Source: Panopea generosa (taxonomy: Eukaryota; Mollusca; Bivalvia; Adapedonta; Hiatellidae). From it: DNA of 64,000 nucleotides. The notes beneath the pieces are model-generated. The model saw only the letters and a program-made list of their open reading frames with translations. It was not told where the DNA came from and did not search any database. Made by a program: the position numbers and the translations under genes. Location: positions 91,208,829 through 91,272,828 of the forward strand of contig CM055897.1 of NCBI GenBank assembly GCA_029582155.1, written 5' to 3'. Below, in pieces: positions 25,101-60,412 of this stretch (positions are counted from its first letter, which is position 1; the number at the start of each line of letters is the position of its first letter).

Positions 25101-28100
25101 AATAAGCACATTTCGATTTGATGTTTTCCGAAATTAACTTAAAAGCTTTAGTTAAAAATCAACAATGTATTGCATATAATAGTATTATTCTTTTCTTATG
25201 CTAAGTATGGTATGCTAAATGCATCGGAAAGTCTAAATTAAACTTATTTCAGATTGTGGCGCTCCACCTACTGCCCAAAACGCTGTCCTTTCTGGAAGAA
25301 CGGGGACAGAATATGGAGATTCAGCTTCATATACATGTAACACGGGTTACACAACAAGTTCTACTCTCGACATATCCTGCTATGACAGCTGGCAGTCAGC
25401 ACCTGTATGCCAGAAGAAAGGTAATATTACAGCGGTCTGTTTTAACAGTCAGTAGTTCCAAGGCTGAAAACGTGTGACTAAATCATGCATCCTACTGAAG
25501 CAAACCTCTCACAAATATCCCAATTATATATAGCTTCTTGTTTGTAACTCTGCAGGGAAATCATAGTTTTGCGACAGTTTTCATAATTCAGCTGTCAAAC
25601 TTTTTATGTATGTTATCTTTGAATGCTACGTCTCTAGTTGGATAAACGTTATCTGATATTGCTCTAAATAATGTAGCATACAAAGAAAACATGTCATAAA
25701 CAGAAAAAAAGATGAAATTTGATATTGAATTCTTAGATACTATGGTGAATACAATAGTCACATGTACACTGATATATACAAAAACGAGATAAACAAGCAA
25801 CTATGTGTTTAAAGCCACTGTTGCCATAGACCTAGCACAAATAAAGCTTGGAATAAGGCTTGAAATATATGTGAAAAAGGCGAAGATTTTAAGCGATATA
25901 GTCGAGAGTTAAAATGCAACTTTCATATTCAAACAAGGCACACGATAGTATCTATAAGTATATGTATGCCTTACACCGGTATGTATAATATACGTATGCC
26001 TTACACCGGTATCAATAAGTATATGTATGCCTTACACCGGTATCAATAAGTATACGTATGCCTTACACCGGTATCAATAAGTATACGTATGCCTTACACC
26101 AGTATCAATAAGTATATGTATGCCTTACACCGCTATCAATAAGTATATGTATGCCTTACACCTTACACCGGTATCAGTAAGTATATGTATGCCTTACACC
26201 GCTATCAATAAGTATATGTATGCCTTACACCTTACACCGGTATCAGTAAGTATATGTATGCTTTACACCAGTATCAATAAGTATATGTATGCCTTACACC
26301 GCTATCAATAAGTATATGTATGCCTTACACCTTACACCAGTATCAGTAAGTATATGTATGCCTTACACCGCTATCAATAAGTATATGTATGCCTTACACC
26401 TTACACCGGTATCAGTAAGTATATGTATGCATTACCCCTCTATCAATAAGTATATGTATGCCTTACACCTTACACCGGTATCAGTAAGTATATGTATGCC
26501 TTACACCGTTATCAATTAGTATATGTATGCCTTACACCGCTATCAATAAGTATATGTATGCCTTACACCTTACACCGGTATCAGTAAGTATATGTATGCC
26601 TTACATCTTACACCGGTATCAGTAAGTATATGTATGCCTTACACCGTTATCAATGAGTATATGTATACCTTACACCGGTCAGATAAAAGTAGCTGTCGCT
26701 TGTGGCATTTCGACGGCACGAAAAAAAAAATATGCGACACTTTGGTTCCAAGCAAGACCAAACGTCTGACAAAGAGAAGAGATAACAGCTGAACAACCAT
26801 ATGTGAGATGTGTGACAACATCTCAAACGCGTTTGAATGATAGTATAGTTTCAGAATTACGATGAATTCCGGAAAATTATTTTGACGAAATGTATGATGG
26901 AATATATAATTTCTAAATAATTGAGTTTTGGCTTTTGATAAACAATAGTTACTATATACGGTTTAACTATTTTTACAGTTTCAGGAAAGTAAATGTTTAA
27001 CTATTCTGGTGTTAAGTCGGTTTTTACCCTAACACCAACCTAAACCAAGTTATAGAATATATAGAACATGAATACTCATTTATTATTGAATTTATTAAAG
27101 GAGTTGGAAAAAAAAAATATATGCGATGCTTTGCGGGAATTTATATAACATCAATGAGTTTGATAAGTTATATGATAAATGTCTCACTACACAGTTGAAT
27201 TTTGTTCTTTGTTCTATGTAAAATAAGGTCTAGGATATCCCTTGTTAAAAAAAAATCCACATAGATTTTTTTTGCATTTTTTTTCCATAGCAGGAATATA
27301 AACCAACATAAAAATGCACAAAAACTGGTACGTTGACCACATTGTTTTTTTTTAAAAAGGGTGCAGTGACAACCTGAGATTTTTTTTTTTATAAAAGAAG
27401 TCCTCAAATGCTCATAAAAACATGCATATGTTGAAATCTTATAAAAGTCACTTTTTAACACCAGGGATGTCTTACTGCAGTATATGCTATACCAACTTTT
27501 GCTCTACTCATCTGCAGCAAGAAATCACAACTACTATTAACCATTTTGAAAATATTTCAAAACCAAAATTACATAGGCCTTATTTTTTAGCGTAAGAATC
27601 ATGTTACCGTGGGAAAAAAGGGGCGTAACTGTGTGGTGAGACGTAAATGAGCACGATTCATATAACTCAAGAAAAATGTTCATTTACGATATATTTGATA
27701 AATAGGGCTTTTTAGCTTTCGTCTATCGTCATATGATGTAACGTCTCAAAATAGCGTCATTTTATCATGACAAATCGACGTCATTTATATGTTTGGACTT
27801 GTCACGTACAATAGCCGAGTTATAGGGACAACTTCAATAGATGAATAAGAAGTGATATTAACCTAGGTTAATATAAAATAAAATTTTGTCGTCTCCTGCA
27901 CCGTAAATTATGTGATATAATTATGTAGTTATCCAAACATTACAATGTTTCCTGATTTTAATGCAAAGTATTATGAGAAACTATAATATAACTGTAATAT
28001 GTTGTGTATATAATGTCATGTTACGTAAAATGTGTATACATACGTTACATTACAGATTGTGGTAGTCCGTCCAGTGTCCCTAATGCAGCAGTACCGGCAT

Positions 28101-31100
28101 ACACTGCCACAACCTTTGGTAGCACCGCGACGTATACATGTGATCCGGGCTATAAACTTACATCTGGTTCTTTAACAATAGCATGTTTACAGACTGGTGT
28201 TTGGCGTCAGGTTCCAGTGTGTTCTAAGAAAGGTTTTGTATTTTCATCAAACAGTAAAACAATAAAATTTCATATACAGATCCAGTTAAGGATTCATGAC
28301 TACTCATATGCTGTATAACGGAAACATTTATAAACCCGTTGGATCATAGAGATACATTGAATTCATGTATATTTAATTTCATAAAGGGAGGTAATTTAAT
28401 TCACAACAACGGAATTAATAAATATATACATTAAAAAATAAAACAATGCACGAACGATTTATATTTTCAATAAACATGTAAACTGAACGTAACAGCTAAT
28501 CTGCAACCTTTGTATTTCCAATATATTCGTCAAAATATTTATTATCCTTATTAAAACTTGTATACACCATTATAACAGACACTTAACATAGTCTGATTGG
28601 CCATTGTTATCGTAAATGTTCTTTCTTATTGAAGTCCAAATTTCAAGAAAATTGCTCTCGTACTTTTTGAGATAATACATGATATGTCAGATGGTGGGTT
28701 ACCTGAAATTAGTCTAATATATGTCATGTGGCGAGTTACCTGAAATTACTCTAATATATGTCAGGTGGCGGGTTACCTGATATTACTCTAATATATTTCA
28801 GATAGCGGGTTACCTGAAATTACTCTTATATATGTCAGGTGGCTGGTTACCTGACATTACTCTAATATATGTCACATAGCGTGTTAGCTGTTTCATTCAG
28901 TAAATGTATTCGGCAAACTTTGTTTCAACACACGTGTTGCAGATCCTCTTAATTGTAATGACCGCGTGTGATCGGATACTTACATAATAAATTTATATAA
29001 CCATTTATATAAATATGTTACTGACTTGTGACTGATATATTTCGTAAGTAATTTATCGTGAGAAATCTATTTCAACTTTTTGTACTTACTGTTTATTTGT
29101 AACGCTGATAGCCTTGGTGTGCCAACACAATGGTTTCTACAATGCAGTTAAGATGTTGTGTATTTGTCCGAGTGGATACTCTGGAGAAAAATGCGAAAAA
29201 GGTATGGAGATTTGATAAATATCTGAAAAGATAATTGTTTTCGAATAAACATTGTTATATAGTAAATGTCTGTGTTTTCCTAAAAAAGAACATTTATGAG
29301 TTATTATTAATCTTCTATCATAGAAAAAAATATTTACAACTTCAAAACTTTTATATAAAAATACAACAGGTGTGCAAAAGTAGTAATAATTTCGGCCGTC
29401 TCATAAATGTTACAGACAGAATTAATAACGAACCTCTCATTTACTTTACAAACAACATTTTACTCAGAGATTACAATGTTGTTAACTGTAAAAAAAACAA
29501 TCTTAGTAACGGTATGAATAAAAAAAAATAAAAATAAAAAGTGTGGAATTCAACAAAACAGGAAATAAGAAGACAAGCGTTTTATCTTTAATAACTTTCA
29601 TAATACCGCTCCGTTGATGTAAGATACCACACTATTTAGTTGTCTTCTCATTTTAATGAATTGATGAAATACAGCTTGCGTAAGTATAATTGCATTTTTG
29701 TCACTGAAATGATATTATATAGTTTTACATTGTATTGAGAATACACCGAAAGATTCTAATAACGCAACACGATTACAGTGTAACTAGTTCGTAAGTAGAC
29801 AACTGGCTCTACTAAAAGAGCTCTTGCATAAAATCTACACTGCACAAGTTTTAAAAATGAAAAAAAAACAACACAAGAAGATCGAAATCCATAGACCGAA
29901 ACCGTGCTTTGCACGTACGCTTTATTGGAAAAATAATGTTTGTAAAGATATGTGTTAAATGTGTTTCAGTAGGTCAACGCTGACCGAAAATAAACAAATA
30001 TCAACTCTATTTTAAATTATAGTGATACTTACTTTCCGATTATTTTTTTTATTTGATATAGAAAACTGATTGGTTTGCCGTACTGTACTAGTATGTCTAT
30101 CGATGGAATTTCTTTATTAAATATTGCCGACATTACATTTTATTGAAGCGCTATACGAACATTTCGGTGTATGACTGACCAAATATTGGTATTCTGAGTA
30201 AGTATTATTCAATGTTTTTCAGTGGGCAGTGATAGAATGGCAGAGAATATAACAACACCGTTAGATCACGTAATCATTATTTTTGTATTTTAAACACTTA
30301 CACTGTTTATATTTTGCCGGGCCCTGGTAGTTCAGTCGGTAAAGTGTCTGACTCGTAATTAGAGTTCGAATCCTCGTCTGACAACATTCTCTGTGATAAT
30401 TGCTTATGTGCATACATGGCGATATTAAATATCATGATTATGCAAACAAGCATTCCTTTCTTTTCTAAGAGTCATTTACGGCTAGTTAATCCATTTATTT
30501 ATTCAATAAAGGTCAACATGGTTTAAGTTCTCCGTTGGCTTCTGATTGGTCAAAGGCGGTTTGCCTGAGTATTTCAATGTTTTGTATGGTTTTGCATGGT
30601 TTGCACGCTTATTTTGAGTACATGGAGTAAATAAAAAATACGTCTTTTTCGTCCGAATTACAACTGTAAATGCTCAGTATTAAAGTGCTTCTGGCATGTA
30701 AGAGCAGATAGATTTACATTATTTATAAGTTAGATCTGACTCGTGATAGTGAATGTCGATTTAGCTGATGTTTGTCAGTGTAGATTTGCCCATGTTTCAG
30801 GCACCCCCAACATTCACCGAGTACATCATACCAGAAATTCTCAACTGTGTGATCGGCAAACCCTGCAAAATCGTCCTGCCCGTAGATGCTAAGCCAACTG
30901 CTAGGTATGTTCACAACGATAGAAAAAATGGATATCAATATGTTAGACTCTTTTTATATATATTTCATCTCATATCAAAAGCCGTATACCGTAAATTACA
31001 AAATCTTATTTCTTTGGTACCATAACTCGAATAATACCGCAAATGTTAATCCAGAACAATATTAATAGTAATTCCAGCGAAGGTTAGTAAGTACCAGAAC

Positions 31101-34100
31101 CATTTTCCATTAAGCGATAACGATATAGTTTAGCTATTCACTGAATATTTTTGATAAAATAACGCTTCTGTCAAATTTCTTTTTGAAATAAATCCTTGAA
31201 AAGTAAATATGATCATCAAACAAAATTAATATTCCTGCATTAGAAACTAATTCAGATGAAATGTTACATATTTTCTTCACACGTACTGCATGGACATACG
31301 AGAATGGAGCAAAACTACCATGTATGCAATTATTTCGATAATCGATTAAGGATACCACATGGAATAAAATGTTGAATGGATGTATCAATTTTGATAACTT
31401 TTTTTATTGTTGCAGCATAATTAATACCGAATATAAGTTAACGAAATGTTTAATTATCCCAGACCAACTGTTCAGAACGGCCATTACACACCCGGGCTTA
31501 TTGTTGAACCGCCCGTCACTACATCACGGCAGCCTTGTTTACTCTCGGCACCACGCTGTAGCTACCAGGCATTGATATCCGTGACACCCAGTAAACCTGG
31601 CAACTTCAAGTACTGTGTACAAACCACTGATGCCCACCTGTAACTATCAGCGTTATGTTTTCTGGTTACTATAAAAATACAAAACTTCATAAAAACGTTA
31701 CAGTTATCGTAATTCTCATTTGTTTAAATCATTATTTCGATTGTTTGTAGTGATATAACAACTTTTATGACATATTACGAAATATTTCTGCTTTAAAAGT
31801 AACGTAAAATATTGGAAAAAACCGTTAAACATTGTTTTAGGAATTTAGATGAATTTTTTTTGTAGCATATAGACAATTATATCGAGTATTAATTCAATCA
31901 CTGAATGTAACTGACATGTACGTACATCTAGCTGGTATTATTTTATTTTCTTGTTTCTAGAGTGAATGCAGATGAACTGTGCTATCAGATCCATGGAACA
32001 CCTGGTAAGGAATGTTCAACATTATATTGCTTCATTACTCCCCGTTCCTGAAACATTTAAAGAAATATGGAAAAATAAAGAAAACGTTATAAGTATCACT
32101 ATAGTAACGTATTCCAGCAGATTTTAGTATCTTATATATGTGGCTCATCTTCATCGTCGCAATGACATAGTTATGAATGTGCTTTGTATTTCTATTATCA
32201 AATCTGATGCTATTTTATAGTTTACATTGTATTCATGAAATTGATATTCAATCTTCAAATTATATTGCTATGATTTTGAATGGCTTAACTTTTGTTTCAT
32301 ATATGTTTTATATAAGTTACTTTAGCAATCTCGTGTAGGTCAAATAACAAACACTCATTCGACCGCTTGTCAAACTTTGATTTGAAATGAAATTAGTTTA
32401 AAATATTAAGTACAGCGTTTTAAACTGTGTGAATGTATTAACACATCCAACAATTGCCGGAATCTGGTGTAAAATACTTTTTTTATATTGTGTTTATTTG
32501 ATATTTGTATTCATTGATTATGTTTCGTTAAATTTCAGATTCACATTTAATACGGGTAAGATGCGTACAATTAAAATATTGGACTTTTTTTGTCGTGATA
32601 TATTAACTTAATGCAGCATGTACAAAGTCGGCAAACATCTAAGAGAGGTTCACATAAACGGTACTTAAGTTCATATATCTTTAATGTTCCACAAATAAAG
32701 TTCACTTCTTATATTCATATCTTTAATATTCCTTGTTAATACACCCATGTACTGTTTCGCATCTATCTAGCCCCGATTCACATTTAAAATATGCAAAAAT
32801 TTAATACATAATCTTTCGAGCCACACGTATAGTTATACTTTGAGTCTTGCCTACTCAACATAATAAAGTTAATCATGAGTATGTTATATGTAAATAGGTT
32901 AAGCCTGATTATATAAAATGTAATGATCGAGACCAAATATCGAAGTTTACAAAAGTTTGTAGAGAGAACCCAGAACAGCACATTCAAAAGTGTTCTTAGT
33001 TTGTTACAGGATCATTACTAATATAATGATTTTACATTTTTTGTTTTAATTTTAAAATTCGTAAAAATAAAACAAACACGTTTAGCTCCAAATATGGAAA
33101 TCATGTTCATACAAGTCGTATGAACAGTATGATTGATTTTAAAAAACAAACCATCATTTATCGCAATGGTGGTACCTTCAACCCCTCTTCCATCCCTTTC
33201 CACTCTGTTAAAACACAACTTTTCGTTTTACATTACCTAAGATTGAATTGCGTGCATTATAAATACCTATATATTGTAATAATATCGCATTACAAACACA
33301 TTTTCAGATGTTGTTTACTTTATTAACATTATTCTAGGGCAGACCCGTTGATTTGCTGAATATTTTGTTTCTCAAAATTGTATTTAAAATGTAACTGTGT
33401 GTAGCTGAATGTCTTGCAATGAATCCTAAAAAACGGGGTTTATCTGTCGATACAGTTTATTTTGTAAATCGTTAATATAAGCATTTAAGTATTTATGACA
33501 ATGCCTATTTAAAGTGATTTCAGTTTACAATATTTCATTACAACTGTATTACTAATCAATGGATTGAATACATAACATGTACAACTGATGTTTTTGAAAT
33601 TTGCGTTTAACACTGTCCATTTTACATGTTATATGTAATGTTATAGTATGTTATATGTCAATTTCATCAGCACATCATGCATTAAAAACGTGCCTGCACG
33701 GTTTTAAGTTGTTGTTTTAATAGTAGAAGATATATTAATATTTGGAAAAACTCTATAAGAAATGTATTCCGCCGTTCTAATCCTTTATATTTTGTATGCT
33801 GTACATGTTAATCTGATAGTACTAGAAACAAACTATGTTTAAACCAACTCATTTATAGCCTCCAAGTAAGTTTGTAGAACCGCCAACATATCCCGTGAAT
33901 TCTACTCTTGTGTGTTCGCCAACATCCACCTGTCACATTCCTATTGAAGTGACAAAGGACACCGGAATACCATGGTATGTGTATGACATATTTGGTTTGC
34001 TTTCAACATTTATCAACTCTTAATAGGTTTAAAGTAGTATTACTCAAGTTACGGTACTATGCTTACGAAGTACAGACAATACATTAACGTATACCTCAGT

Positions 34101-37100
34101 AGAAGACTTAAAATTATTCGAATAATTGTTTTTAAATTAATTTTATGTGTAACTTCAACCATTTTTTCCGTACAATCGTTTGCTTGACATTTATTAAAAC
34201 CTTTGTTGTATGAAATAGTCGTCGCAATCAATAATAATTTTAGGTTTGATTGAAGGTTTAAAAAATAAATAATTCAAAATGTATTTGGTTTGAATAAGAA
34301 AAGGAAATATTGTACCAACAGTATGATCTTATACAACTTCCAGTCAGAGCATTGTGGTAGATCCTCCTGTACAAAATGTGAAAATCTTCTCCCAAGGACC
34401 AGCATCAACTACATGTAAATTTGACGTGGCATTTGCACCATCAGAAACACAGAAAGGAAACATTACTGTCTGCTTTAAGTAAGAATATTTCTGTTTTTCT
34501 TGTCATGATATATTGACTTCTTCATCTCAAACCCATTGTATAATATCGGCCAGTTTGTTGTTTCGTTTCTGTGATATGTAATTTATCTCGTTTATATTAC
34601 TTAACAAATTAAGATGAATACCCTAACTTTTGCAAATAAAACTGATGAAAGAATCTCTTGGAAACACAGATTGCACTTCACGTAACCAGAATAAAAATAA
34701 TAATATCAGGCTTGGTTTTATGTAATGTGTTCCTGAGGGGTAATACGATACTCCCATCGCGACTCTGGTACTGGCTTAAGTGGTACAAGACAAAATGAGC
34801 TCCATGAATCCACATACAGGGTGACATTTACGGTCGCCACACGGCACACAAGACTGCTGTTGTGACAATTACAATTGACGATCGCCACACGGAACACAAA
34901 CCTGATGTTGTGACAATCACATTGGATGGTCGCCACACGGCACACAATACTGCTGTTGTGACAATTACAATTGACGGCCGCTACACGGCACACAAACTGC
35001 TGTTGCTGAAATCACCATTGACGGCTGCCACACGGAACACAAACCTGATGGTGTGGCAATCACAATTGACGGCTGGCACACTGCACTCAAGACTGCTGTT
35101 GTGATAATTACAATTGACGGCCGCAACACGACACGCAAGACTGCTGTTGCGACAATCACATTGGACGGCTGCCACACGGCACTCAAGACTGCTGTTGTGA
35201 TAATCACAATAGATGGCCTCCACACGGCACGCAAGACTGCTGTTGTGACACTCACAATGGACGGTCGCAACACGGCACGCACGACGGCTGTTGTTAAAAT
35301 CACAATGGACGGCCGTCACACGGCACGCGTGACTGCTGTATGACAATTCCAGTGGACGGCCGTGTGAGACAGCTGTCACACGGCAGGCAAGACTGCTGTT
35401 GTGACAATCTCAATGGACGACCACCAGATGGCACGCCAGGCTGCTGTTATGACAATCACAGTTGAAGTCAATCATATCTGATAAAACGATCCATTGGAAG
35501 TAACAAATGAAACATTCTTTTAAAGCTAAAATACTGAAGCTGTTGTCCATGCTATAGATTTAACCTCGAATGCTTGAGGTTGTTTGTTGTGTCCTGTCCT
35601 AATTATATGAAAAAGTTGTAAGTTGCGCTCAAATTCCTACGTAAACTAAAAGAAGGTCATATATGGCTTTACGACTCAAGACGATGACCTCTATTAATAT
35701 ATCTTCATGACTCCTGATAGACATATATTTCGGCCGTGAATACGTGTAGAACGCAACAGTAAATTTCGCATATGCGGTACAATATCTCGAAACGTTTTAC
35801 ATATGCACTTAAAGTTTAGATCGGAGCATATAATTGCGATGTTGCCGATATAAGAAAGGGATGTTATGTAAGACACATACTATATTAGTGACTTTAGGGA
35901 TTTTTAAAATGATAATTAACGTTGAAAAGTTTAATTTCTTTTTTTCCAGAAAACCGTCTACGTCATCAAGCACTCACGATGAGACGCGCTGTATCAAGAT
36001 TGATGTGAAATCAAAACAAGAAATGTGTAAGTAACATGATCCCTGATCTTTGAGCTTTGTAATAATTGCCCGTTTACCTTACCCTATTTTAGCCTTGAGC
36101 CCACCACCTTATTACACAAGCGCAGTACCAATTTCTTCTGATCTCATGAATACTATTTCAGTGTAGTTGAAAACACTTTTCATATTTTGACTAAGTTGGT
36201 TGTTATCAGCTCAAAACACTAACATAATATATTTGAACTCTGAAGAAGAGTTACTTTTGTCCTATTTTAGCCAAACTTCTTATAACACCATCAGTAGTAC
36301 TAATGAAGTACTAATTTCTTCTGATTTCATGAATATTTCCGTGTAGTTAGCCATAGATTGTTTGACTAAGTTCGTTGTTATCAGCTCAACATACTTATAA
36401 TTATAATATTTATCAGAATGTAATATTTATATAATATATATATACATTGAGATAGATATTTGTGAATAACCAGACATAAATGAACAGACCAGACAACGGC
36501 CAGCGCGCCTAGCTACAATGCAACAAGGCGTCAACTTATATACTATATATATGATATGGAACTTTGTCAATCCATGTGATATTTGAGTTCGTGTAAATCT
36601 TATTTCGTCTGGATTGCCACTTGTTTCCAAACATTATGCGAAACCGAATTCTATTCATTTGCTATCATATTCGCAAATTGCTGACGAACAATGTCACGTA
36701 TTGGCCTTTCAAGCTTTAGATTATATCCATGTATTTTGTTATTACTCGAGTATGATATGAAGAAACAATCTTTCTAATGCGTATTGGTCGAATACTATCA
36801 CAACATATATATATGAATCGCTATTTCCCTTTTATTGTTTAAGGCAGTGAATGTAATTTTAATAATTTGACGTTGGTCGCCAGGCCCACCCTATGCGAAG
36901 TATGTCAGTTTATTATAACTGGCTAGTTTTTTTTAATTAAATGGAATCTTCTATAATCATAATCACAGTCTGGGAGTTAACTTAAATGTCTAAATGTCTC
37001 GTGTATAATTGATCGTTCGGGAAACTTTTGAAATACATTTGTATCCAGTATTTTTTTTCTAATAAGCTGTTCATAACCATTAATAAAAAAAAAAGTGTTT

Positions 37101-40100
37101 AAAGAAATCGCGCGTAATTTTTAAAATTGTTGTGCCTTTCATTCACTAGAACCTACATAGTTATAAATTAACGTAGTTTTGACATATTCTAAACGTCCTT
37201 GTCACATGAATATATAGATTTAAGAATGAAAATGCTGACAGAAGCATAAGCCATCACATTAATATATTATTTCTTAAAAGACAGTATCTTCTATAAAATA
37301 AAACAAGAAAAAGTTGTCTGAAGAACACGAATTTATAATATCATCCTTCCCAACAACCAGTGCATAATAATATATATATATATATTTCCGGATCATAATC
37401 TTGTATAAGAGTTTTTGCCCTAAGTAAATGTTATTTATGTATATACATGTCGGTATCTTTTAGTACAGAGCACAGGACCATGCAGGAATCTCCATTGTGA
37501 GAACGGGGGATTCTGTGACGCGAAGAGCTCATCTCCAACCTGTCTTTGTAAACCAGGCACATCTGGACAAACATGTCAAAACAGTATGTAGAAGAGAGAA
37601 GTATTTGGAAAATACATGTTTCCATATACTATTACTTATCCACAGATATTAAAACTGATAAATCATCTAAAGGTACCCATTGAAACGAAAGATTGTCAAT
37701 TGATGGTTCATGAAATTAAGTTTATCAGATTATCATTTTTAGTATCATAGTCAAATTTTAAAAAGAAAATTCTTAAAATATATATTGTTTAATAATTTGT
37801 AGTGTTTTAGGATCTGTGTTAATGTTTCACCTAAAGGATATTTACATCAACATGATACGTTAAAGTGTATGCTTATAAAAATGAAAGTTCGTACATATGT
37901 CGTAATATTGTTCTTCACTCTTGTTATACACCAATATATATCTTCATACCCAAAAAAGAATCAAGCTACAATTCAGCTGGAGCCATACCAACAAGTGTCA
38001 CGTGTGTAAAATCCCAGAAATGTGTGATTTCATTCCCAGTGATTAGTGGCAGGTTTGTACAAATAGTTAATCATGTTTAATAAACTACTGATATTTTATG
38101 ACAAATCACACTGATCAACAAATTGTATTGAGAGAGCATGTCTATATTAAAAGAACTGTATGTTAATTTTGTCTATATTAAAAGTACTGCATGTTAATTT
38201 TGTCTATATTTAAAGTACTGCATGTTAATTTTGTATATGTTTTAAGTACTGCATGTTAATTTTGTCTATATTGTTAATTTTGTCTATATTAAAAGAACTA
38301 TATGTTAATTTTGTCTATATTAAACTATGTTTAAAGTACTGCATGTTAATTTTGTCTATATTAAAAAAACTGCATGTTAATTTTATATATATTATAAAAA
38401 CTGCATGTTAATTTTGTCTTTATTGTTAATTTTGTCTATATTAAAGTACTGCATGTTAATTTTGTCTATATTTAAAGTACTGCATGTTAATTTTGTCTAT
38501 ATTAAAAAACTGCATGTCAATTTTGTCTATATTAAAGTACTGCATGTTATGTTAATTTTGTCAATTTTGTCTTTATATAAAGAACTACATGTTAATTTTA
38601 TCTATATTTAAAGTACTGCATGTTAATTTTGTCTAAATTTAAAGAACTACATGTTAATTTTGTCTATTTAAAGGACTGCATATAAACATTGTCTCAAATT
38701 TAAGAACCGCATGTTAATTTTGTCTTTATTTAAAGAACTGCATGTTAAATTAGTCTATATTTAAAGTACTGCATATTGATTTTGTCTATATTTAAAAAAA
38801 CTGCATGTAAATTTTGTCTTCATTTAGAGAACTAAATGTTAATTTTGTCTATTTAAAGTACTGCATACTAATTTTGTGTACATTGAAAGAACTGCATGTT
38901 AATATTGTCTAAATTTAAAAAACTGTATGTTAATTTTATCTTTATTTAAAGAACTGCATGTTAATTTTGTCTATTTAAAGTGCTGCATATTAATAAATTG
39001 AAAGAAATGTATGTTAATTTTGTCTATATTTAAAGTACTGCATATTAATTTTGTGTACATTGAAAGAACTGCATGTTAAATTAGTCTATATTTAAAGTAC
39101 TGCATATTGATTTTATCTATATTTAAAAAACTGCATGTAAAGTTTGTCTTCATTTAAAGAACTAAATGTTAATTGTGTCTATCTAAAATACTGCATATTG
39201 ATTTTGTCTATATTTAAAAAACAGCATGTAAATTTTGTCTTCATTTGAAGAACTCAATGTTAATTTTGTCTATATTTAAAGTACTGCATATTAATTTTGT
39301 GTACATTTAAAGAACTGCATGTTAAATTAGTCTATATTTAAAGTACTTCATATTGATTTTATCTATATTTAAAAAACTGCTTGTAAATTTTGTCTTCATT
39401 TAAAGAACTAAATGTTAATTTTGTCTATTTAAAGTACTGCATATTAATATTGTCTAAATTTAAAAAACTGTATGTTAATTTTATCTTTATTTAAAGAACT
39501 AAATGCTAATTTTGTCTATTTAAAGTACTGCATATTAATTTTGTCTAAATTTAAATAACTGCATGTTAATTTTGTCTATTCAAAGTACTGATATTCATTT
39601 TTTGTTTATATTTAAAAAAGTGCATGTTTATTTTGTCTTTATTTTAAGAACTGCATGTTAATTGTGTCTATATCTAAAGTACTGCATGTTAGTTTTTTCT
39701 ATGTTAAAAATACTGCATGTTAATTTTGTCTATATTAAAAAAACTGCTTGTTAATTTTGTCTTTATTTAAAAAATGCATGTTAATTTTATCTGTATTTAA
39801 TGTACTGCATGTTTATTTTATCTATATTGTTAATTTTGTCTATATTGAAAGAACTGCATGTTCATTTTGTCTATATTAAAAAAATTGCATGTTCATTTTG
39901 TCTGTATTAAAAAACTCCATGTTAATTTTGTCTATATAAAAGTACTGCATGTTATGTTAATTTTGTCAATTTTGTCTTTATTTAAAGAACTGCATGTTAA
40001 TTTGGTCTACAATTTAAAGAACTGTATGTTAATTTTGTCTATATTTATAGTACTGCATATCAATTTTATCTACATTGAAAGAACTGCATGTTAATTTTGT

Positions 40101-43100
40101 CTATATTTAAAGAACTGCATGTTAATTTTGTCTATGTTTAAAGTACTGCATGTTGATTTTGTCTATATTTAAAAAACTGCATGTTAATTTTGTCTTTATT
40201 AAAAAAACAGCATGGTTATTTTATCTATATTTAAAGTACTGCATGTTGATTTTTCTATATTTAAAAAACTGCTTGTTAATTTTGTCTTTATTAAAAAACT
40301 GTATGGTTATTTTATCTATATTTAGAGTACTGCATGTCAATTATGTCTAAATTAAAAAACTTCATGTCAATTGTGTCTATATTAAAGTACTGCATGTCAA
40401 TTTTGTATATTTTAAAGAAGTGCATGTTAGGTTAATTTTGTCAATTTTGTCTTTATTTAAAGAACTGCATGTTAATTTTGTCTATATTTAAAGAACTGCA
40501 TGTTAATTGTCTATATCTAAAGAATTGCATGTAAATTTTGTCTGTATTAAAAAACAGCATGTTAATATTGTCTATATTGATAAAACTGTATGATAATTTT
40601 GTCTTTATTAAAAAAATTGCATGTTAATTTTGTTTATATTTAAAGTACTGCATGTTAATTTTGTCTAAATTGAAAGAACTGCATGTCAATTTTGTCTATA
40701 TTTAAGGCTGCATGTTAATTTTGTCTAAATTGAAACAACTGCATGTTTATTTTGTCTAAATTTATAAAACTGCATGTTAATTTTGTCTATCTTTAAAGTA
40801 ATGCATATTGATGTTGTCTATATTTAAAAACTGCACGTTAATTTTGTCTTCAATTAAATAGCTGCATGTTAATTTTGTCTAGATTTAAAGAACTGCATGT
40901 TAATTTTGTCTATTTAAAGTACTACATTTTAAAATTGTTTAAATTTAAACAACTGTATGTTAATTTTGTCTTTATTTAAAGAACTGCATGTTAATTTTGT
41001 CCATATTAAAATCACAGCATATTAATTTTGTCTAAATTAAAAGAACTGCATGTTAATTTTGTCTATATTTAAAGTACTGCATATTAATTTTGTCCATATT
41101 TAAATCACAGCATATTAATTTCGTCTAAATTAAAAGAACTGCATGTTAATTTTGTCAATATTTAAAGAACTGCATGTTAATTTTGTTTATATTTAAAGTA
41201 TTGCATATTAATTTTGTCTATTAATTCTGTCAATATTTAAAGAACTGCATGTTCATTTTGTCTAAATTTAAACAAACTGCATGTTTATTTTGTCTTTTTT
41301 TACAGAGCTCATGTTAATTCTGTCTATATTTAAAGAACTGCATGTTAATTATGTCTATCTTTAAAAAAACTGCATGTTAATTTTGTCTATATTGATAAAA
41401 CTGCATGTTGATTTTGTTTTTATTAAAAAAAATGGATGTTAATTTTGTCAATATTTAAAGTACTACATGTTAATATTGTCTAAATTTAAAGAATTGCATG
41501 CTAATTTTGTCTTTATTTAAAGAAATGCATATTAATTTTGTTTAAATTTAAAGAACAGCATGTTAATTTTGCTGTGTATAAATGCACCACTGACATTATT
41601 GATTTAGACTATATGTTTGATAATTGTTCTGTCCTGAATTAGTTATTAAATTAATCACAATAGAGCTTTCTATATGTTGCTTTTGAAGGTGATAGGGGAA
41701 AGGAAAAGGAAAGTGCTATTTATTAAGTTTAAAACATAATTGATAACACAAATCAGCAGATATATTTATATTGCTTTATACACTAATTGCATTAGGAACT
41801 GAAATAAAGTGTACCACATGACCTCTGTCTGGTTTCAGTCCACCATCAGTGACGTCAAATAGCAGCATACCAGTAACCCCATTCCAAGACCCGTCCAACC
41901 CAGATCTACACCATATCGCGGTAGATGTCGATCCAAATGTTGACTCAACTACAATCTGTATCAACATCACTACTGACAAGTGTGTATACATGTCTATTTT
42001 TATAACGGAACTGTGGAATTAGAAAACAACACTAAATGATAGTCAAACTATTTTGTCATTGTGCCACAGTCATTTAAATTTCAACAGTTACGACATAGTT
42101 GCATAATGTAGTTCATTAAATATTGCGTTTAGGATTTTTGTGTGAAACTCTACTTTGTAATCAATTTTTTTTTCATTAGTTTCATTCCACTTCATCAGCT
42201 TTTTCTAATCAATGAAAGAAACCCCAATTTATTCATCTAAGTTAAGAAGCAATTATATCAATTTACAACTAAAACATTGTTAGTGTTATGCCAAGATTAC
42301 AATTTAGATGAATGTGCATTATATAATAATGTATATAATGACATTATATTACATTATTTAGACCAAAACCAGAGGAGAAATGTGTAGATATCATAAAGAC
42401 CAACACTCCGACTACACCAGCCAGACCAGGAGTAAGTAACTCCATAGTTCATATATTAACAGATCAAAACCACCAAAAGCGCCTTAGCCCTTGTCACACT
42501 ATCAGAGAAAAGTCGACGTTCTGTTTAACATAATTATTTTTTTATAACATTTATATTTATATTGCATTCGACAAAAGCTTAACCGTTAAATCATTGAACA
42601 TTAAAATGTATATACTTGATTGTATTCGTGAATGTACTCTTTAAACATTTTCTAAATGTTCACAATAACATAAACATGTATTGGGAACACTTTTATCACA
42701 CTTGCAAAGTTTATGTTGGTAGGTTGCAATAATATTTTCATTTTAATCTGCATTTTATTCAAACAGATTAGATACCTTGATAATTTTAAAACATTCGCAC
42801 AGGTTGTATTAATTTTGAACTATTACATTTGCACACATAACATATATGACTTGTGAATAATGTATCTGAGGGATGAAAAGTAGTATTTAAAAAAGGATAA
42901 TGTCAGTTTTAATTTACAAATTTAAATAAATAGCTTTTTTCAGTTATTGTTTTCCGTGTCTAAATAAATCACTCGTCATCCGGCGGGAATGGTAATTGTC
43001 ACCCAATTTGAGAATTACTCAGAAATGTTTTCCATGGAAGAAAACAACAGTTGAATAATATCTCTCTACCTTTATATAATTTGACCGGCCTTACTTTAAT

Positions 43101-44427
43101 AACCTAAATACGCCGTTTGTGTTTGTACTGATGAAGTAACATAGTTTTAGTTTAAACATATTTTATTCACAAATAGTATACAATTACATTGAAAATATCA
43201 CATACTAGTTAACACATGTGTATATACAATTATGTAAGGGATTCAGAAGAAAGCTTACAGCTTTTGTGAATCTGTCTCCCAATATAGTCTTGCAATTAGA
43301 CCTAGGCCTACTACGCTCTTGTTTGATATATCTATTTTTATTTTAGCTTACTTTAATGAAATAGTCTAACAATTTCACCATTAATCACTTAAGTCTTAAT
43401 GTATATTATATAGAACTTAAAAGTGTATCCATTCTATTCAAACACAAGTAAACAGTTATTTAGAAATCAAATACTGTTTTTCTTCAGCTGGTATCAATTA
43501 ATTTCAACATTTGATCACTAGCTACTAAATGTTTACATAACGTTTTCAGGAACTTTCAACGAGTGACCCGTCATTCCAGTGTGATCCTAACAGTCAGTGT
43601 CAAATCACCGTCAACAGCAAACCGTTGGTCGATAATTCCTGGTAAGTCGAGAATGAAATGTAATGAAAGACCTTATTTAAAGAGGGTAGCCCAATTAGAT
43701 TGAAACTAATCTTTCTTTGGGTCCTCTAATGATACATTTACATATTATTTACAAAATACAATAGTAAAACAAAATAAAAATATTATAAGCATTGCAAGGA
43801 AATTGATAAACATGAAATATGATAACTACATATATATCATTTTTAGGGTTTTTAAGCAATCCTTTGAAAGTCTCTTTGATTAAAAAATATATATACAAAA
43901 TTAATCAAGATAGTGAATATCGCTACATCTGTTACAACAAAATAAGCAACAACAACAAAAAAAACTACAATTATTTACAGTTAATTATATATTTGTGTAC
44001 ATTGAAGGTTGTGGCTTATTTATAACAATTTCAGTATTAATTGTTTAATTATCTTTGGGACATATGAAGAAGTTCATTCTGTTTGTAATCATTTAACACA
44101 ATTTGTTTTTTACTGCAGTACAGTTTCTGATATTAACCGGTATACTTTTCCATAATAAAGTTCCAGAATAGGACAAACTATATATAATTCCTTGTTGGGT
44201 TTGGTGTGATAAAATTTAATTCATTTTGTGAACGTATATTTCTACGAACGTTTTCATTTGTATCAATCATATCTGTTATATACGAAAGTGCATTGTTTTG
44301 TAAAACTCTTTTTAGGAAAGCAAGGTTACTACCTAGGAATTTAATATTTTTGTACAAAACAATGAAATTGAAATAGTAAAATTGTTTTGTTATCTTGGGA
44401 TTGTATTCACTCAAGGGGTGTGTGGGT

Positions 44428-44474
<47 letters not shown>

Positions 44475-47400
44475 CATTCAATGAAACACAAATTACTTTG
44501 GCAGGTCAAGCGTTGAAAGCTATTTTTAAATTAAATAAATATATATATATAGATTCACAAATATTTCGGTCAAACACAAACTTGATTTATTTGATAAACT
44601 TGTAAGGCCAATACTAAGGTATGGATCTGAAGTTTGGGGTTTAACTTCGGCTTTAAATATCGAAAGAGTACATATAATGTTTTGTAAAAAAGTACTTAAT
44701 GTAAAAAGGAGTACACAAAATAATTTCATCAATGGAGAATTAGGAAGAACAAATTTTGTCACACAGAGGCATTATAACATTGTCAAATATTGGTTAAAAA
44801 TAATTTGCTCTGGCGAAAATTAATTTGTAAAACTCGTATATAACATGATGAGAAGTGATGCTGATCTGCATCCAAATAAAAAGAACTGGGTAACGTTATT
44901 GAAACAACTTCAACTTCATTAATTATTATATAGTGCGGGAAATGACGTTACATCTTTTGACGTTGTCCATACAGGATATGACGTCACGTCATCATTATAG
45001 AAAAACAACCTAAAGGAAAATGGACGTTACCTAGCTGCAATATTAAATTTTCAATTTTTGATAAAGGCCAGGTGGCCGAAAATTAAATATTGAGTGAATT
45101 AAATTGAACTTGTGTTATTGAAACAATTATTGTCTTCTCTTGGTTTTTATGTCGCTTGGTTATTCCAAGGTGTTGGAGATAACACTTTGTTTTTGTATAC
45201 TGTAAAACAAAGATAATTTCATTCAAAATTTACATTATCGTCTTCGGATCTCAAGTAGAGCGAATACCTACACTTTATTTTTTGATAGTTTTGCTTTGAA
45301 ATCTTACTTGTATATGGTTAATATAGAAAAATACAGAATTGCGTTATCTAGGTTAAAACTCTCATCTCACAATTTACAAATAGAAGTCGGAAGATGGCAA
45401 AAACCTCATAGTATACCTTTAAATGAACGTAAATGTACCACATGTGATACATTAGAAAACGAATATCATTTTGTAATTGAATACAGATTATATAATCAAA
45501 TAAGAAACACATATATTAAGAAATATTATTCGAAAAGGCCAAATATGTTTAAATTTTTAGGACTTATGCAAAGTCAAAACGAAAAAACTATTAGTTGTCT
45601 TAGTGTTTCGTGTTTAAAGCTTTTGAAATAAAGAAAAATGAAATATTCAGTTAACCCAACTTACAATGCTACGTTACAAGTTTACATAACTTATATTAAA
45701 TATAAAAACAATAACAAAGAAAACATTTTTGAATACAAATGCATCTAAATTCAATTATTGTATAAACAGTTATGTGCGCGTGTGTGAGTGTGTTAGTACG
45801 TCTGTGCGTTGTATTTAGTTGTACACATTTCACATGGATCTTATGGCCTGTTGGAATTTCTGAATAAACGATATATATATATACATTTAATACACGAGAA
45901 ACATTGATTTTCCTTATTATGTCATTTAAAAAACATTTACAATTTAAGAACCTGTAAAATTTACAAATGTCGATATAAAAGGATTGTTCTAGCAAAACAA
46001 AAAGGAAACAGTCGTGTGAACGTTTTTTAAAATATAAATTTCAGCATAGGCAACCCCTGATTTTCTTTTTTTTTACTCTTCAATTCTGCAATTTTCAAAT
46101 ATCATTTTGCTAGGAAATGCTAGGATGAATTTAAATGTAAAACAGTATTTGTTTAAATAAGGCATTCATGGAATAATTGATACAACCTTGATCAATAATA
46201 ATCATTATCTTGTACTATCTCATAATATTATTAAATATATATTGTTTGAAAATGATCATAAAGTGAGCAGTGCATCTTTGAAAAGATGAGCTACTCTGTC
46301 ATTAAATTACAAGGCAGTATTGCCGAGGTTGTTGTTCTTTGATGTACAATTACATAGGATAACGCAGAAATATGTACGTAATTTCATTATGGTAATGGCG
46401 GGACTCATATATGTTTATCAATTCAGAATGGCATTTTAACCAATTACTCTCGTATGCAGATGATATTGGCCATAATTATTATTTCTGGTTATTGTTTCTT
46501 CTGATAAAATGTTTAGAATGAATCAAATATCTTAATTTATTAGCCATGTACCATTGATAAAATTTACATTGTCCGCCGACATTAAGTTATTGAGGTTTTG
46601 GATTTAGCAAACTAATAAATACATGCACGATGGTATTCAAATTTAGTGTTATTAAATTTGATAACCTTTTTGTTCTGTAATATGTTATGAAGGTAAAAAC
46701 TATATTGGATATGTTCCTGATGAACAGTGACTTTTCACTACAGCCGACCAATGAGGGTTCACGAGAGTACGAACATGGATGCTGTACATGTATTTAAAGG
46801 TACAAAAGTAGCTGGACAGTGCATTACATATGTTACCGCAACACCAACAGCAGGCCAAAGCGACCAGCAGATCTGTCTTGATACTTCAACAGTGTAAGTT
46901 TTGTAAATAATAGGTCACATGACCATGTTAGGCATTATGTAACAAGCATATCACGTGTCCAGTTTCACTGTTATGTAAGAATCAAATGGCGTAGTCATAT
47001 TGGCCATTATAAAACTGACCACGTGCACATTTAAGGTAGTTCGTGGCGTTCCCGTCAGATTTTTTGACATCTGGCGTAATTTATAAAAAATCTGTACAAT
47101 TGATCTTTATAGTCTCAGCTTTCGTTTAAACTTTGTTTTTATTAATGTAGGATCGCAGTTTCTCGTTAACAGCGCTCCCTGGTGGTATTATTTTTCGGAT
47201 GTTTTTCGCTACTTTTCCCTTGTAAAATAATCAGTATTTATTCAAAATTGTTTTAATTACATTATTTAATAACTTTTTTTATTTCCTGTGTGAGATTATA
47301 ACTTTCATGCAGATAAAATATAATTTGTGTTACCTTTATATCTAATCATTTTGCCGGTGTTGATATAAACGTGGGTTTAAAAACAACGAATTTGAAACAT

Positions 47401-50400
47401 TTTCACGGATGACTACGCGAAAATGCTCTGGTACAATTTCTAGAATTCACATATGTTAAACTTTATTATCTCTCTAAAATATGATCAAATACAGAGAGTG
47501 GTGTTCAAACTTGTGTTTTTAAGGGTTTCATTTTTAATTTGAATGCGAATTTATAAAAAAACTATCGTGAACTATTTTTTTATTCAGTCATAGTTTCAGT
47601 AGCAAAATAAATAAAGTTTAAAACATGTAAAATTCAAAAACTTGTACCAGAGCATTTTTGCGCAATCAAGTGTTAATTTTTCATTTTTTGTTTGTTTTTA
47701 AACCCGCATTTTAATCAACCCCAGTGTAATGATTAGATGTAAAGGTATCATGAATCACGCTTTATCTGCATTAATGTTATAGGTTTAACACAGGAAATTA
47801 AATAAGTAATTTAAAACTGTTATTAGAACAGTTTTCAAATAATATTGACCATTTTATAAGGAAAGAACGGCGAAAATCGGCCGTAAACACACATACAGTT
47901 CGGCGGCGCTGTTAACAAGATTCTGCATAACTATATTAAAAAAAACAAAGCTAATTGGAAAACTGAAACATCATAGTATCTTTTTTGTACAGAATTTTTA
48001 TAATTTGCGGCAACTGTAAAAAAATCCGATAGGAACGCCGCGAACTACCTTAAGCAGTTTGACTGTGTTACCTGTATGAAAGCAATGCGACCATCAAATT
48101 AGCTGACAATCATTTGTATCACTTCATTTATTGTCATCATAACACTTTCACCAAAGAACTTGAAGTAAACGTGAAAACATTGACATATTAATAATATATC
48201 CGTTTCATATGATATTACTATTTTACCAGAGCATGTGCAGCTGAATAAATAAATACCTGTACATCAAGTGAGGCCGAGTTCCGTAAAGTTTGGATGCACA
48301 CACAATTATCGTCTTATAAGATTGGAAGCCTCACATGTTATTGATACTTTAAGTGTTTTTTTTTAAATGGCTCAAACGTGTTTTTTCTTGCTAGAGGTTT
48401 TTGTTCGTATTAGATAAATTGAACTTCATTATTGTACAGAGTTTTATTATGTAGCTAGTAATTTATATTAGGTATTCAATGGTAATCTCTCGTAAAACAT
48501 TTCTTGGCCATGTACATATACTTCGTATAATTGTTGTACTTGTTATTGTAATGTACAAAGATGAGACTTAAATAATAATAATAATGATAAAAATAACTAT
48601 CATTATAATATTTATAATTGAAATAATAATAATAACATTATAACAACATTATCAATATTAATAATAATAATAAGAAGAAGATGAAAAAGAAGAAGAAAGA
48701 AGAAGGAAAGAAGAAAGAATTAATTTAAACACGACACTATTCCACATATTCATTATTTACGTCAAAACAATAAATAACACACAAACGATCTGTAACAGTA
48801 TATGCATATATAAGCTATTAAGTTATTAAACAAAATAGTATTACTAGATCAAGTCAGTTGTCCTGTTTTACTAAATTAAATACATTTTATTGTACATAGG
48901 AAACGGCTGACGACCGACGATAATGACAGGCTAACTTCATCTTAAGTAGATAGCATACGTTTGAGATACACTTGTCGGTAATTAATTATTTATTTTAATC
49001 AATACACTTATATCCTTCAGGCCCAAGTGTTATCAAGTGCATGTGGGAACAACAGGTAAGATTTGCTCAATCCTTTATAGACATAGGAATACTTTATGGA
49101 TGTGTAAAATAAAATTAAAAATAATTCGTAAAAAATTAAATGCATATATTATATTGGTAAGAAAAAACACATAGCACAAAATCGATTTTCCAGACCAACG
49201 TTAACTTACTTATTTTACATAATGATATAATATGCAAAAATGATTTCTTTTCTCCCGTAACCGGTGCTTTACACATGATTTCTCAGTCATTTTGTACGTT
49301 CGCGCGTCCTTGCGGTCCGTCTCCATACGCACCTACATGTATGCTTGATAGTGGAGTTTTGATGAATATGTGATTGACATATACATATTCACTTGCTGGG
49401 ATGAAAGTTGTTTTCACGACAGAACATTGTTGCACATGCAGAATGATCTTGTCATGTTTATATGCTTATGACAGTATTAACATGCACAGTTATCCTATAT
49501 GTGTTAGTGTGATAAGAGTTGCAATAAGCGCCGGAAATATAGTCGTGGATACCATAAAATTATAGGGCGGTAGATGTGATCGCCATGCCACGTGGATGTC
49601 CAATTAGAAGGTCCATGTAGCCATGTGAAAAGGGATAACTTTGTCTAATCAAGACAGTGAATGTTTTAAAATGAGTTAAACCACGTTGTATCGAAGATTC
49701 AATTACAGTAGTTGCCTACCGGATACATTATATTACGCCGGTTTCTGAGTAATCTAATGGTTGAATAATTAGGAAATAACGCAGACTTAGAGAGCTTATT
49801 ATTTAGAAACTATTTATTTCAATTGAAAATTAACTTCATTGTATTAACCCAATTTCATCTATATTCGAGATTACAAGAGCCAATGGTTAATGATGCGACA
49901 TTGTGATCCTAAACTGGATATAGCAGCATTTCCTTTTGATGATATAAGTGATTATTCGATCTCACGGTGGCATACTCAATGATTGAACTATCTAATATGA
50001 TATGTGGTTTATTTCGTCTTAATGATGGACATATGCCACGTTTGGATTGAGGTTCATTTTGTCTTAATTATGGGCATATGCCAAGTTTGGGTTGTGGTTC
50101 ATTTTGTCTAAATGATGGGCATATGTCAAGTTTGGGTTGTGGTTAATTTTGTCTTAATGATGGGCATATGCCAAGTTTGGGTTGAGGTTAATTTTGTCTA
50201 AATGATGGGCATATGCCAAGTTTGGGTTGTGGTTAATTTTGTCTTAATGATGGGCATATGTCAAGTTTGGGTTGTGGTTAATTTTGTCTTAATGATGGGC
50301 ATATGCCACGTTTGGGTTGAGGTTAATTTTCTCTTAATGATGGGCATATGCCACGTTTGGGTTGAGGTTTATTTTGTCTTAATGATGGGCATATGACAAG

Positions 50401-59994: not shown

Positions 59995-60412
59995 CACTGT
60001 TACAGAACCACACAATGGGGAATAATACCTATAACAGCGGAACATTGTTACACAAGAATCTTACAATGGGGAATAATACGTATAACAGCGGAACATTGTT
60101 ATACAAGAATTACAGAATTGAGAATAATACGTATAACAGCGGATCATTGTTATACAAGAATCACAAGATGGGGAATAATACGTATAACAGCGGAACATTG
60201 TTATACAAGAATCACACAATGGGGAATAATACGTATAACAGCGGATCATTGTTATACAAGAATCACACAATGGGGAATAATACGTTTAACAGCGGATCAT
60301 TGTTATACAAGAATCACACAATGGGGAATGATACGTATAACAGCGGAACATTGTTGAACTAGAATCACACAATGGGGAATACGCAAAACAGGGAAACACT
60401 TTTATACAATAA
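59995..60412 (+). repeat. 51-bp minisatellite, about 8 copies
   Basis: Units of acaagaatcacacaatgggg + aataatacgtataacagcgg + atcattgttat. The period is a multiple of three, so three overlapping frames stay open (up to 143 codons). Confidence 0.92.

Follow-up and report, generated by a model that had tools for sequence, protein, structure and literature searches.

A candidate extracellular domain in two alternating, intron-split subfamilies from a predicted sushi-rich membrane protein of the bivalve Panopea generosa

Sushi domains are disulphide-bonded, and CSMD1, SVEP1 and Uninflatable are large extracellular or membrane proteins bearing sushi and/or EGF-like domains; none of the three is known to us to carry the module described here. 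In another extracellular setting, PMC3431597 describes a C-X5-C motif in EC1 as completely conserved across vertebrate clustered protocadherins. Analysing a window of Panopea generosa DNA (the whole stretch of 64,000 nucleotides considered here, in which all features given below lie on the plus strand), we characterized a cysteine module present in four copies behind a series of sushi exons, together with its paralogues elsewhere in the genome. On sequence evidence, the fourteen copies form two alternating subfamilies, not four equal repeats, and searches of Pfam-A (2025), NCBIfam and the PDB gave no convincing match that would put a name to the domain.

Exon structure of the predicted gene

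The 5' part of the window, between 91 and 28232, holds 16 sushi (CCP) exons of phase 1-1 (first 91-270, last 28056-28232), with 8+8 stretches matched by PF00084 on two concatenates of these exons. Fourteen were called by pattern and two were added later (2412-2591 and 25253-25420), for both of which we chose the end ranked second, as the sushi domain is complete only with that end. All 16 are assigned by assumption to the module-bearing protein, and the start of the gene, with any signal peptide, lies outside the window. Two EGF-like exons of phase 1-1 follow, the first supported by frame and splice sites (29112-29201) and the second (37464-37583) holding the best PF00008 stretch, at residues 278-305 of what we call the tail protein. 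PF00008 matched two stretches of this protein (E 1.7e-5), which fall in the two EGF exons when the best stretch per family is taken, and EGF_Teneurin aligned with residues 4-29 at E 0.011, short of the cut-off.

The first-pass annotation had proposed four copies of a cysteine module, each divided into exons A, B and C by two introns. This structure held, with GT-AG sites and continuous frames in 4/4 copies (30801-49055), phase 2 at both A|B and B|C in all four modules, and every one of the cysteine motifs quoted for parts A, B and C found in the spliced products. For the first exon A the start is 30801 and not 30784 as proposed, and the spliced modules M1 to M4 measure 108, 109, 101 and 92 residues against the earlier 114, 103, 102 and 92. 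M1 (type I) comprises exon A at 30801-30904, exon B at 31463-31639, which carries two extra cysteines spaced by seven residues, and exon C at 31961-32004. M2 (type II) comprises exon A at 33859-33974, exon B at 34344-34478, where the A/B junction codon TG|T encodes Cys3, and exon C at 35950-36026. M3 (type I) comprises exon A at 37959-38052, exon B at 41839-41979, devoid of Cys3 and Cys4, and exon C fused to a linker with exit phase 0 at 42362-42431, a layout shared with copies P3a, P3b and Q1. M4 (type II) comprises exon A at 43550-43641, exon B at 46744-46893, with TG|C as its Cys3 junction codon, and exon C at 49021-49055. The start of M3 exon A is uncertain because its acceptor is weak, scoring 0.8 where the remaining acceptors used score 5.3-12.9. 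Profiles trained on copies outside the window revealed no fifth module in its 2,869 six-frame peptides.

Short linker exons complete this organization. A direct join of the first EGF exon to M1 exon A was ruled out on phase, and the micro-exon that would provide the phase 1 to 0 step (30223-30269) is a doubtful candidate, whose splice score leaves it out of the top 6 among 57; it was included in the tail protein used for the Pfam, tblastn and genome searches. Between M1 and M2, a 17 nt micro-exon of phase 1 to 0 (32539-32555) is the best of 35 candidates in its interval (14.9, next 6.0), one of five control intervals having reached 14.4, and two upstream units carry micro-exons of the same phase and place. 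Such a short I-II linker exon occurs in 3/7 spliced pairs and, since it runs from phase 1 to 0, linker, A, B and C together can form a class 1-1 unit. Downstream of M4, a short exon of phase 1-1 (52342-52362) and another of phase 1 to 0 (53177-53190), both placed on frame and splice sites, lead to the last exon (57946-58215), which is followed by a stop codon and encodes a CYC juxtamembrane stretch and a Gly-rich probable membrane helix with a short basic tail behind it. This last exon is 49% and 51% identical to its counterparts in two C15 paralogues. Its 19-residue hydropathy maximum is 1.73 (1.41 and 1.61 in the paralogues) in a Gly-rich, moderately hydrophobic segment with basic residues next to it. 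The product is probably a very large, single-pass membrane protein, with a predicted architecture of at least 16 sushi domains, two EGF-I-II units and, at the end, a membrane helix with its short basic tail.

Homology of the copies and their division into two subfamilies

Further copies of the module were found in the source genome at C4, C15 (two genes) and C14, these copy numbers being lower bounds, and include paralogues with EGF exons, modules and the last exon. EGF exon 2 alone has ten C15 matches at 48-63% identity, and the order EGF-I-II is kept in 7/7 spliced pairs. At C14, the EGF exon, a type I B exon and a C exon were found and exon A was not; the third exon of copy V2 was not found either. 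In the C15 minus-strand gene (L026), a type I exon B is seen in two frames, and at L022 an exon A is followed by sushi-like frames without a B exon.

Within the window alone, pairwise scores were weak apart from that of M1/M2, which was reached by 5/1000 shuffles; that of M1/M3 was reached by 55/1000, and those of the remaining four pairs by 230-397 of 1000. The C-x5-C-x-I motif, picked post hoc, appeared in 0.5-1.0% of shuffled versions of each exon A, giving a product of about 2e-9 for the four. A MAFFT alignment restricted to the window copies misaligned M3 and was set aside. Firm evidence came with the paralogues: in 14/14 leave-one-out tests within subtype, the score was reached by 0/2,000 shuffles and by 0/2,000 cysteine-fixed shuffles. 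In a blind test, profiles trained solely on copies outside the window and run on its 2,869 six-frame peptides placed 7/8 A and B exons at the top: M1B, M3A and M1A were ranks 1-3 for type I, and M4B, M2A, M4A and M2B ranks 1-4 for type II. The eighth, M3B, came fifth with the type I profile (E 0.54), below a peptide from a repeat array (E 0.038), and the C exons gave no significant score in this test with the outside-trained profiles.

Exons of the ten outside copies had been chosen by requiring cysteine motifs near C-x5-C together with phase 2 at both internal introns (exon B of P3a and P3b, with poor acceptors, was chosen by eye from frame lists), so that phase 2 in all copies and C-x5-C in 14/14 are not independent counts for them. 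When these ten copies were retested in a homology-fixed frame with all phases allowed, by taking the best-scoring splice site within 36 nt, phase 2 was best in 18/20 donors and 15/19 acceptors, five of the six exceptions lying in P3a and P3b and one in Q1. Furthermore, spliced frames gave dN/dS of 0.15/0.62 for P3a/P3b (ratio about 0.24) and 0.15/0.38 for P4a/P4b (0.39), both computed without a significance test. Leave-one-out scores, blind recovery and shared intron phases support the initial proposal that the module is a homologous domain duplicated together with its introns.

The subfamilies alternate along the gene, with M1 and M3 as type I and M2 and M4 as type II, and differ in cysteine content, mostly four in type I and six in type II. 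In type II, the A|B intron cuts a Cys codon in 7/7 copies and a further Cys lies 24-27 residues on in 7/7, a co-occurrence suggesting a C3-C4 disulphide; in type I, this junction Cys is absent in 7/7 copies and 6/7 have four cysteines in total. A bonded C-x5-C pair (C1-C2) is plausible. Compared as profiles, the two types are related to each other, with an hhalign E of 2.7e-6 and a probability of 89%; an earlier comparison with ten copies only had given 8.3e-5 and 61%, and in its cross-subtype shuffles only copy U1 beat all 2,000. Against 4,000 shuffles, the type I profile placed M2, U2 and Q2 above all of them, and M4, V2, P4a and P4b were not separated, being reached by 1,101, 363, 405 and 28.

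Candidate nature of the domain and competing explanations

The modules had been described as fitting neither sushi, EGF, HYR, fibronectin III nor Ig signatures, in agreement with our searches. In Pfam-A (2025), searched to a maximum E of 10 with HMMER filters that drop most matches above about 0.1, none of the 14 copies gave a match at the cut-off, the lowest E being 0.04. PF00084 matched none of the 14 and does match the 16 neighbouring exons, none matched an EGF profile, and HYR, fibronectin III, Ig, cadherin and PKD models gave none up to E 10. NCBIfam yielded no significant match for the four window copies (best E 0.083), and the PDB no convincing one for single copies M4 and M2 or profiles A2, A3, A4, A6 and A7. 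A phage capsid protein reached in the PDB with the misaligned window-only profile A2 (E 0.0098) was absent with larger alignments and was read as chance. When the tail protein was compared with viral and prokaryotic sequence collections, there were 3 and 33 pattern matches, and tblastn returned no relative. Taken by themselves, the B exons of the four window copies gave a poor AlphaFold model, with a pLDDT of 48.5 and two short strands, which was left out of the interpretation.

Our favoured explanation, which we regard as reasonably probable as a whole, is that of a membrane receptor with paired, disulphide-held I and II domains spread by duplication together with their introns. Types I and II would both belong, as subfamilies, to a single extracellular domain that is about 90-115 residues long and folds as a small beta-sandwich stapled by disulphides, in which the C-x5-C bridge would lie near the domain start, C5-C6 would tie the last two strands and C3-C4 would be an extra bridge of type II. 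The EGF-I-II block probably spread by duplication, introns included, inside the locus and into paralogues, and the modules probably make up the stalk of a receptor for recognition or adhesion at the cell surface and provide its contact surface.

The modules could also be diverged members of the Ig-like superfamily (cadherin-like, FN3-like, PKD or putative Ig) beyond profile detection, a prospect we consider evenly balanced; it would assign the favoured fold to a family and is compatible with the favoured explanation. Strand-like hydrophobic patterns seen by eye and the late Cys pair point in this direction, as do non-significant resemblances to a BigA beta sandwich domain (M2, E 0.084), p73 (E 0.68), an endoglucanase stretch that we take to be PKD-like (E 0.57), an internalin-like protein (E 0.73) and, via its C-x5-C, protocadherin-19. 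However, other weak matches were unrelated (the phage capsid protein, and pectinesterase at 0.77), no copy reached the Pfam cut-off, and no beta-sandwich family showed a significant sequence link in the Pfam and PDB searches. Somewhat less probable, and still a serious prospect, is that the domain already has a catalogue entry, either without a name or in a specialist resource (PANTHER, CDD, InterPro), or is treated in a paper beyond the library covered, and would be new only to the libraries used. Molluscs commonly have large sushi proteins, and our searches were confined to Pfam-A (2025), NCBIfam, PDB entries and openly available PMC papers; against this, among the PMC papers listed for sushi/EGF proteins, molluscs or bivalves, no title or abstract opening names the domain.

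That some or all copies are decaying, functionless duplicates would account for the two-frame exon B of L026 and the lone exon A of L022, but it is very unlikely given intact frames in 4/4 window copies, the conservation of cysteines and last exon, and the low dN/dS ratios of both paralogue pairs. Chance open frames, made alike by selecting cysteine-bearing ones, would suit the weak window scores other than M1/M2 and the motif- and phase-based choice of outside copies, but are scarcely credible in view of the blind recovery, the 14/14 leave-one-out tests including cysteine-fixed shuffles, the dN/dS values and a G+C content that is higher in the module exons (0.46) than in the introns (0.30).

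Returning to the receptor explanation, we tentatively propose, at slightly less than even confidence, that I-II is a new extracellular family occurring as an obligate alternating pair in a clade-limited block of giant sushi receptors, with a conserved intron inside a disulphide-Cys codon, this Cys and the C3-C4 bridge marking the subfamily split. Since the kind of protein is familiar, the surprise is moderate. Animal cell-surface building blocks outside model species are still missed by domain libraries, and the subfamily pair, with its phases, cysteine pattern and 14-copy seed, is directly usable as a profile for other animals, where it could name unannotated parts of sushi-rich receptors and date the origin of the unit.

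Comparison with known extracellular modules

The modules share their protein and setting with the sushi/CCP domain (PF00084), itself a class 1-1 exon, but a sushi domain is here a single exon of about 60 residues, whereas each module consists of three coding exons, sometimes with a linker exon, and has no PF00084 match. The EGF-like domain (PF00008) precedes domain I in all seven spliced pairs and co-duplicates with it; the modules are longer, differ in cysteine spacing and match no EGF profile. With protocadherin EC1 they have in common a C-x5-C-x-I in an extracellular domain, and only 25 columns around the motif align with protocadherin-19 at a non-significant E of 5.1; the modules do not qualify as cadherin repeats, cadherin models in Pfam matched none of the 14 copies, and the likeness is most likely convergence.

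The EGF-I-II unit qualifies as a class 1-1 shuffled module, bounded by phase-1 introns on either side. The EGF exons are 1-1, and the M1-M2 and M3-M4 pairs exit in phase 1, which is also the entry phase of M3, whereas entry into M1 requires a linker exon whose candidate is doubtful by splice score, and M3 or M4 taken singly is not class 1-1. As in the class 1-1 modules treated by Patthy (PMC8001218), the I-II pairs exit in phase 1 behind class 1-1 EGF exons, so that EGF-I-II would be duplicable in frame. By contrast with the modules described there, the present one is interrupted by a pair of phase-2 introns, and in type II one of the pair falls within a Cys codon.

A sushi, EGF and cysteine-module mosaic gene

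Our verdict on the four three-exon modules (M1 to M4) is that they represent a real, duplicated domain pair, as yet without a name, within a familiar type of receptor. They belong to one long mosaic gene on the plus strand of the window, comprising 16 sushi exons between 91 and 28232 (8+8 sushi stretches in Pfam), a first EGF exon (29112-29201) preceding M1 and M2, a second (37464-37583) ahead of M3 and M4, and then a pair of very short exons before the final one (57946-58215), which a stop codon follows immediately. Exons A, B and C of each module were found within the span given by the first-pass annotation (30784 to 49055), both internal introns (A|B and B|C) being phase 2 in all four copies, and each cysteine motif it had quoted was recovered. 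All drawn junctions are GT-AG with a continuous reading frame, and G+C content was 0.46 in module exons vs 0.30 in introns. The step from the first EGF exon (phase 1) to M1A (phase 0) requires a linker exon, for which the candidate at 30223-30269 is doubtful, as it fell outside the six best of 57 by splice score. Because the first sushi exon begins at base 91 and further units lie upstream, the gene very likely extends beyond the window and may include these upstream units (U and V).

The introns and 3' flank are dense in minisatellites, with shortest reported periods of 19-69 bp (score 400 or more; 6880-8863, 20393-20740, 21617-22096, 22182-23712, 25947-26679, 34826-35362, 38139-41571, 50006-51107, 53822-55786, 60004-60381 and 60832-62314), including more than 3 kb of 31-bp units between M3A and M3B. 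A 998-residue stop-to-stop frame on the minus strand (15693-18689), amid the sushi exons, resembles a LINE reverse transcriptase, and frames on the plus strand at 44539-45631, in the M4A-M4B intron directly after a long G run, resemble the end of one.

Paralogous copies and two alternating subfamilies

Searching the 1.47 Gb genome (39 contigs; window at C4:91208829-91272828) with the spliced product from the EGF/module part onward, including the doubtful linker exon, revealed an EGF/module region upstream on the same contig (C4) and two genes on opposite strands of contig C15, whose last exons share 49% and 51% identity with the window's. Ten additional copies were spliced from outside the window: U1, U2, V1 and V2 (the latter without a third exon) upstream on C4, and Q1, Q2, P3a, P4a, P3b and P4b on the plus strand of C15. 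These 14 copies form two subfamilies, type I (M1, M3, U1, V1, Q1, P3a, P3b) and type II (M2, M4, U2, V2, Q2, P4a, P4b), alternating in the order I then II with an EGF exon upstream of the type I member in all seven pairs. Single exons belonging to still other copies were also detected on the C15 minus strand (e.g. exon A in stretches L026, L028 and L032; E 4e-11 to 7.7e-10), as was a type I exon B on C14 (E 5.9e-5); in two genome searches with spliced paralogues (40 candidates scored each), all matches with E < 0.1 were on C4 or C15.

A sushi-like frame, read from the sequence and not from a Pfam scan, adjoins one C15 unit. Elsewhere on the C15 plus strand (L022:477-1068), a solitary type I-like exon A (477-573, E 0.00018) is followed by two sushi-like repeats in one frame, with no B exon; this exception to the EGF-I-II order may be a relic or an unusual join. 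On the minus strand, homology to type I exon B in L026 (reverse complement about 2827-2992) is divided between two reading frames, perhaps through breakage or misassembly of this copy. L030 (reverse complement 26-202; profile E just 0.13) contains an exon resembling B that has two additional cysteines (STCDTC), a hint of another divergent member of type II. Among 150 scored of 1,896 candidates, long runs of similar sushi exons occurred on C5, C6, C16 and other contigs, for example at C6:65.04-65.12 Mb, many of whose matches have identical or near-identical scores.

The proposal of a homologous, duplicated domain was borne out by profiles. Aligning the four window copies pair by pair would have been insufficient proof: the M1/M2 score, the only clear one, was reached by 5 of 1000 shuffles, that of M1/M3, a borderline case, by 55, and the remaining four pairs lay inside the shuffles (230-397 of 1000). 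In leave-one-out tests against own-subtype profiles, all 14 copies exceeded 2,000 plain and 2,000 cysteine-fixed shuffles, close sisters being held out for the P pairs and the likewise close U1/Q1 and U2/Q2 not being held out jointly. Profiles built blindly from outside copies and run against 2,869 six-frame window peptides ranked M1B, M3A and M1A first to third for type I (M3B was fifth, E 0.54, below a repeat-array peptide at E 0.038) and M4B, M2A, M4A and M2B as the top four for type II; among these peptides no C exon was significant and neither profile revealed a fifth copy. Spliced frames gave dS 0.62 and dN 0.15 for P3a/P3b, and 0.38 and 0.15 for P4a/P4b, as estimates carrying no significance test.

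Kinship between the subtypes was detected profile against profile (E 2.7e-6, probability 89%), more weakly than within subtypes. The type I profile placed M2, U2 and Q2 above all 4,000 shuffles, while P4b, V2, P4a and M4 were reached by 28, 363, 405 and 1,101. With the type II profile, U1, Q1 and V1 exceeded all 2,000 plain shuffles (cysteine-fixed: 16, 16 and 1 of 2,000), and M1, M3, P3a and P3b were reached by 14, 30, 7 and 10 plain and 111, 174, 73 and 81 cysteine-fixed shuffles (of 2,000 each). The intron phases common to both subtypes strengthen this evidence of kinship.

Cysteines, intron phases and linkers

C1-x5-C2 is present in 14/14 copies, those outside the window having been searched with a near form of the motif. 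In type II, the A|B intron cuts a Cys codon and another Cys follows 24-27 residues on (both 7/7); no type I copy has Cys at the junction codon (0/7), and 6/7 carry four cysteines in all. The partial exception is M1, which has two further cysteines, +25 and +32 relative to the junction, the first of them at about the distance of the fourth cysteine; V2 carries one extra Cys, at +6. As cysteine co-occurrence tracks the subtype split, that of C3 and C4 may reflect one or few events. We infer disulphides C1-C2 and C5-C6, plus C3-C4 in type II.

Since paralogue exons had been picked by asking for phase 2, phases were retested with all phases allowed, the frame set by homology and the best-scoring site taken within 36 nt: phase 2 was best in 18/20 donors and 15/19 acceptors, P3a and P3b holding 5/6 exceptions. 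Linker micro-exons between types I and II pass from phase 1 to 0 and measure 17 nt in the window (score 14.9, one of five control intervals being as high as 14.4), 26 nt in the U unit and 35 nt, Pro/Thr-rich, in the V unit. Exon C of M3, P3a, P3b and Q1 extends into the linker and exits in phase 0, as if an intron had been lost. A 74-bp minisatellite with 19 copies (L041:427-1836; C4:91194278-91195687) stretches from the end of exon U1B into the next intron; its unit consists of the last 62 nt of the exon plus the 5' splice donor, AG|GTAAT being kept in 16/18 script-found matches (the exon's own counted), and the exon end seems to have given rise to a series of decoy donors within the intron.

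Known domains, probable topology and spread

The modules had been described as fitting no named domain, and a Pfam-A scan of the 14 copies (hmmscan, max E 10) agreed, its five matches all missing the cut-off (BigA_beta 0.084, EPTP 0.04, Antimicrobial25 0.31, MinC_N 0.19, DUF6993 0.088). NCBIfam gave a single match for the four window copies, far under cut-off (E 0.083), and PDB sequence searches gave nothing significant for M4 or M2 singly or for profiles of 5-7 copies; a phage capsid protein (E 0.0098) came from a misaligned four-copy profile and was absent from later searches. None of the papers retrieved on sushi/EGF proteins, molluscs or bivalves names the module in its title or abstract opening. 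AlphaFold on exon B alone (pLDDT 48.5, two short strands) was too poor to serve as evidence.

The last exon encodes a CYC-containing juxtamembrane stretch, then a Gly-rich segment of moderate hydrophobicity (19-residue hydropathy means of 1.41-1.73 across three genes) and finally a short basic tail; we read it as a putative membrane anchor. Such an anchor would bring the modules, which separate it from the sushi array, close to the membrane, where they could act as disulphide-stapled stalk or adhesion domains; from the architecture alone, we infer a possible recognition function.

Patthy (PMC8001218) states that the domains employed when animal exons are shuffled are of class 1-1, to which the EGF exons and I-II pairs conform, so that EGF-I-II could have duplicated in frame. 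The type I profile also touched protocadherin-19 in the PDB at the C-x5-C motif (E 5.1); PMC3431597 describes an EC1 C-X5-C motif as conserved in vertebrate clustered protocadherins, and convergence is the simple reading of this shared motif.
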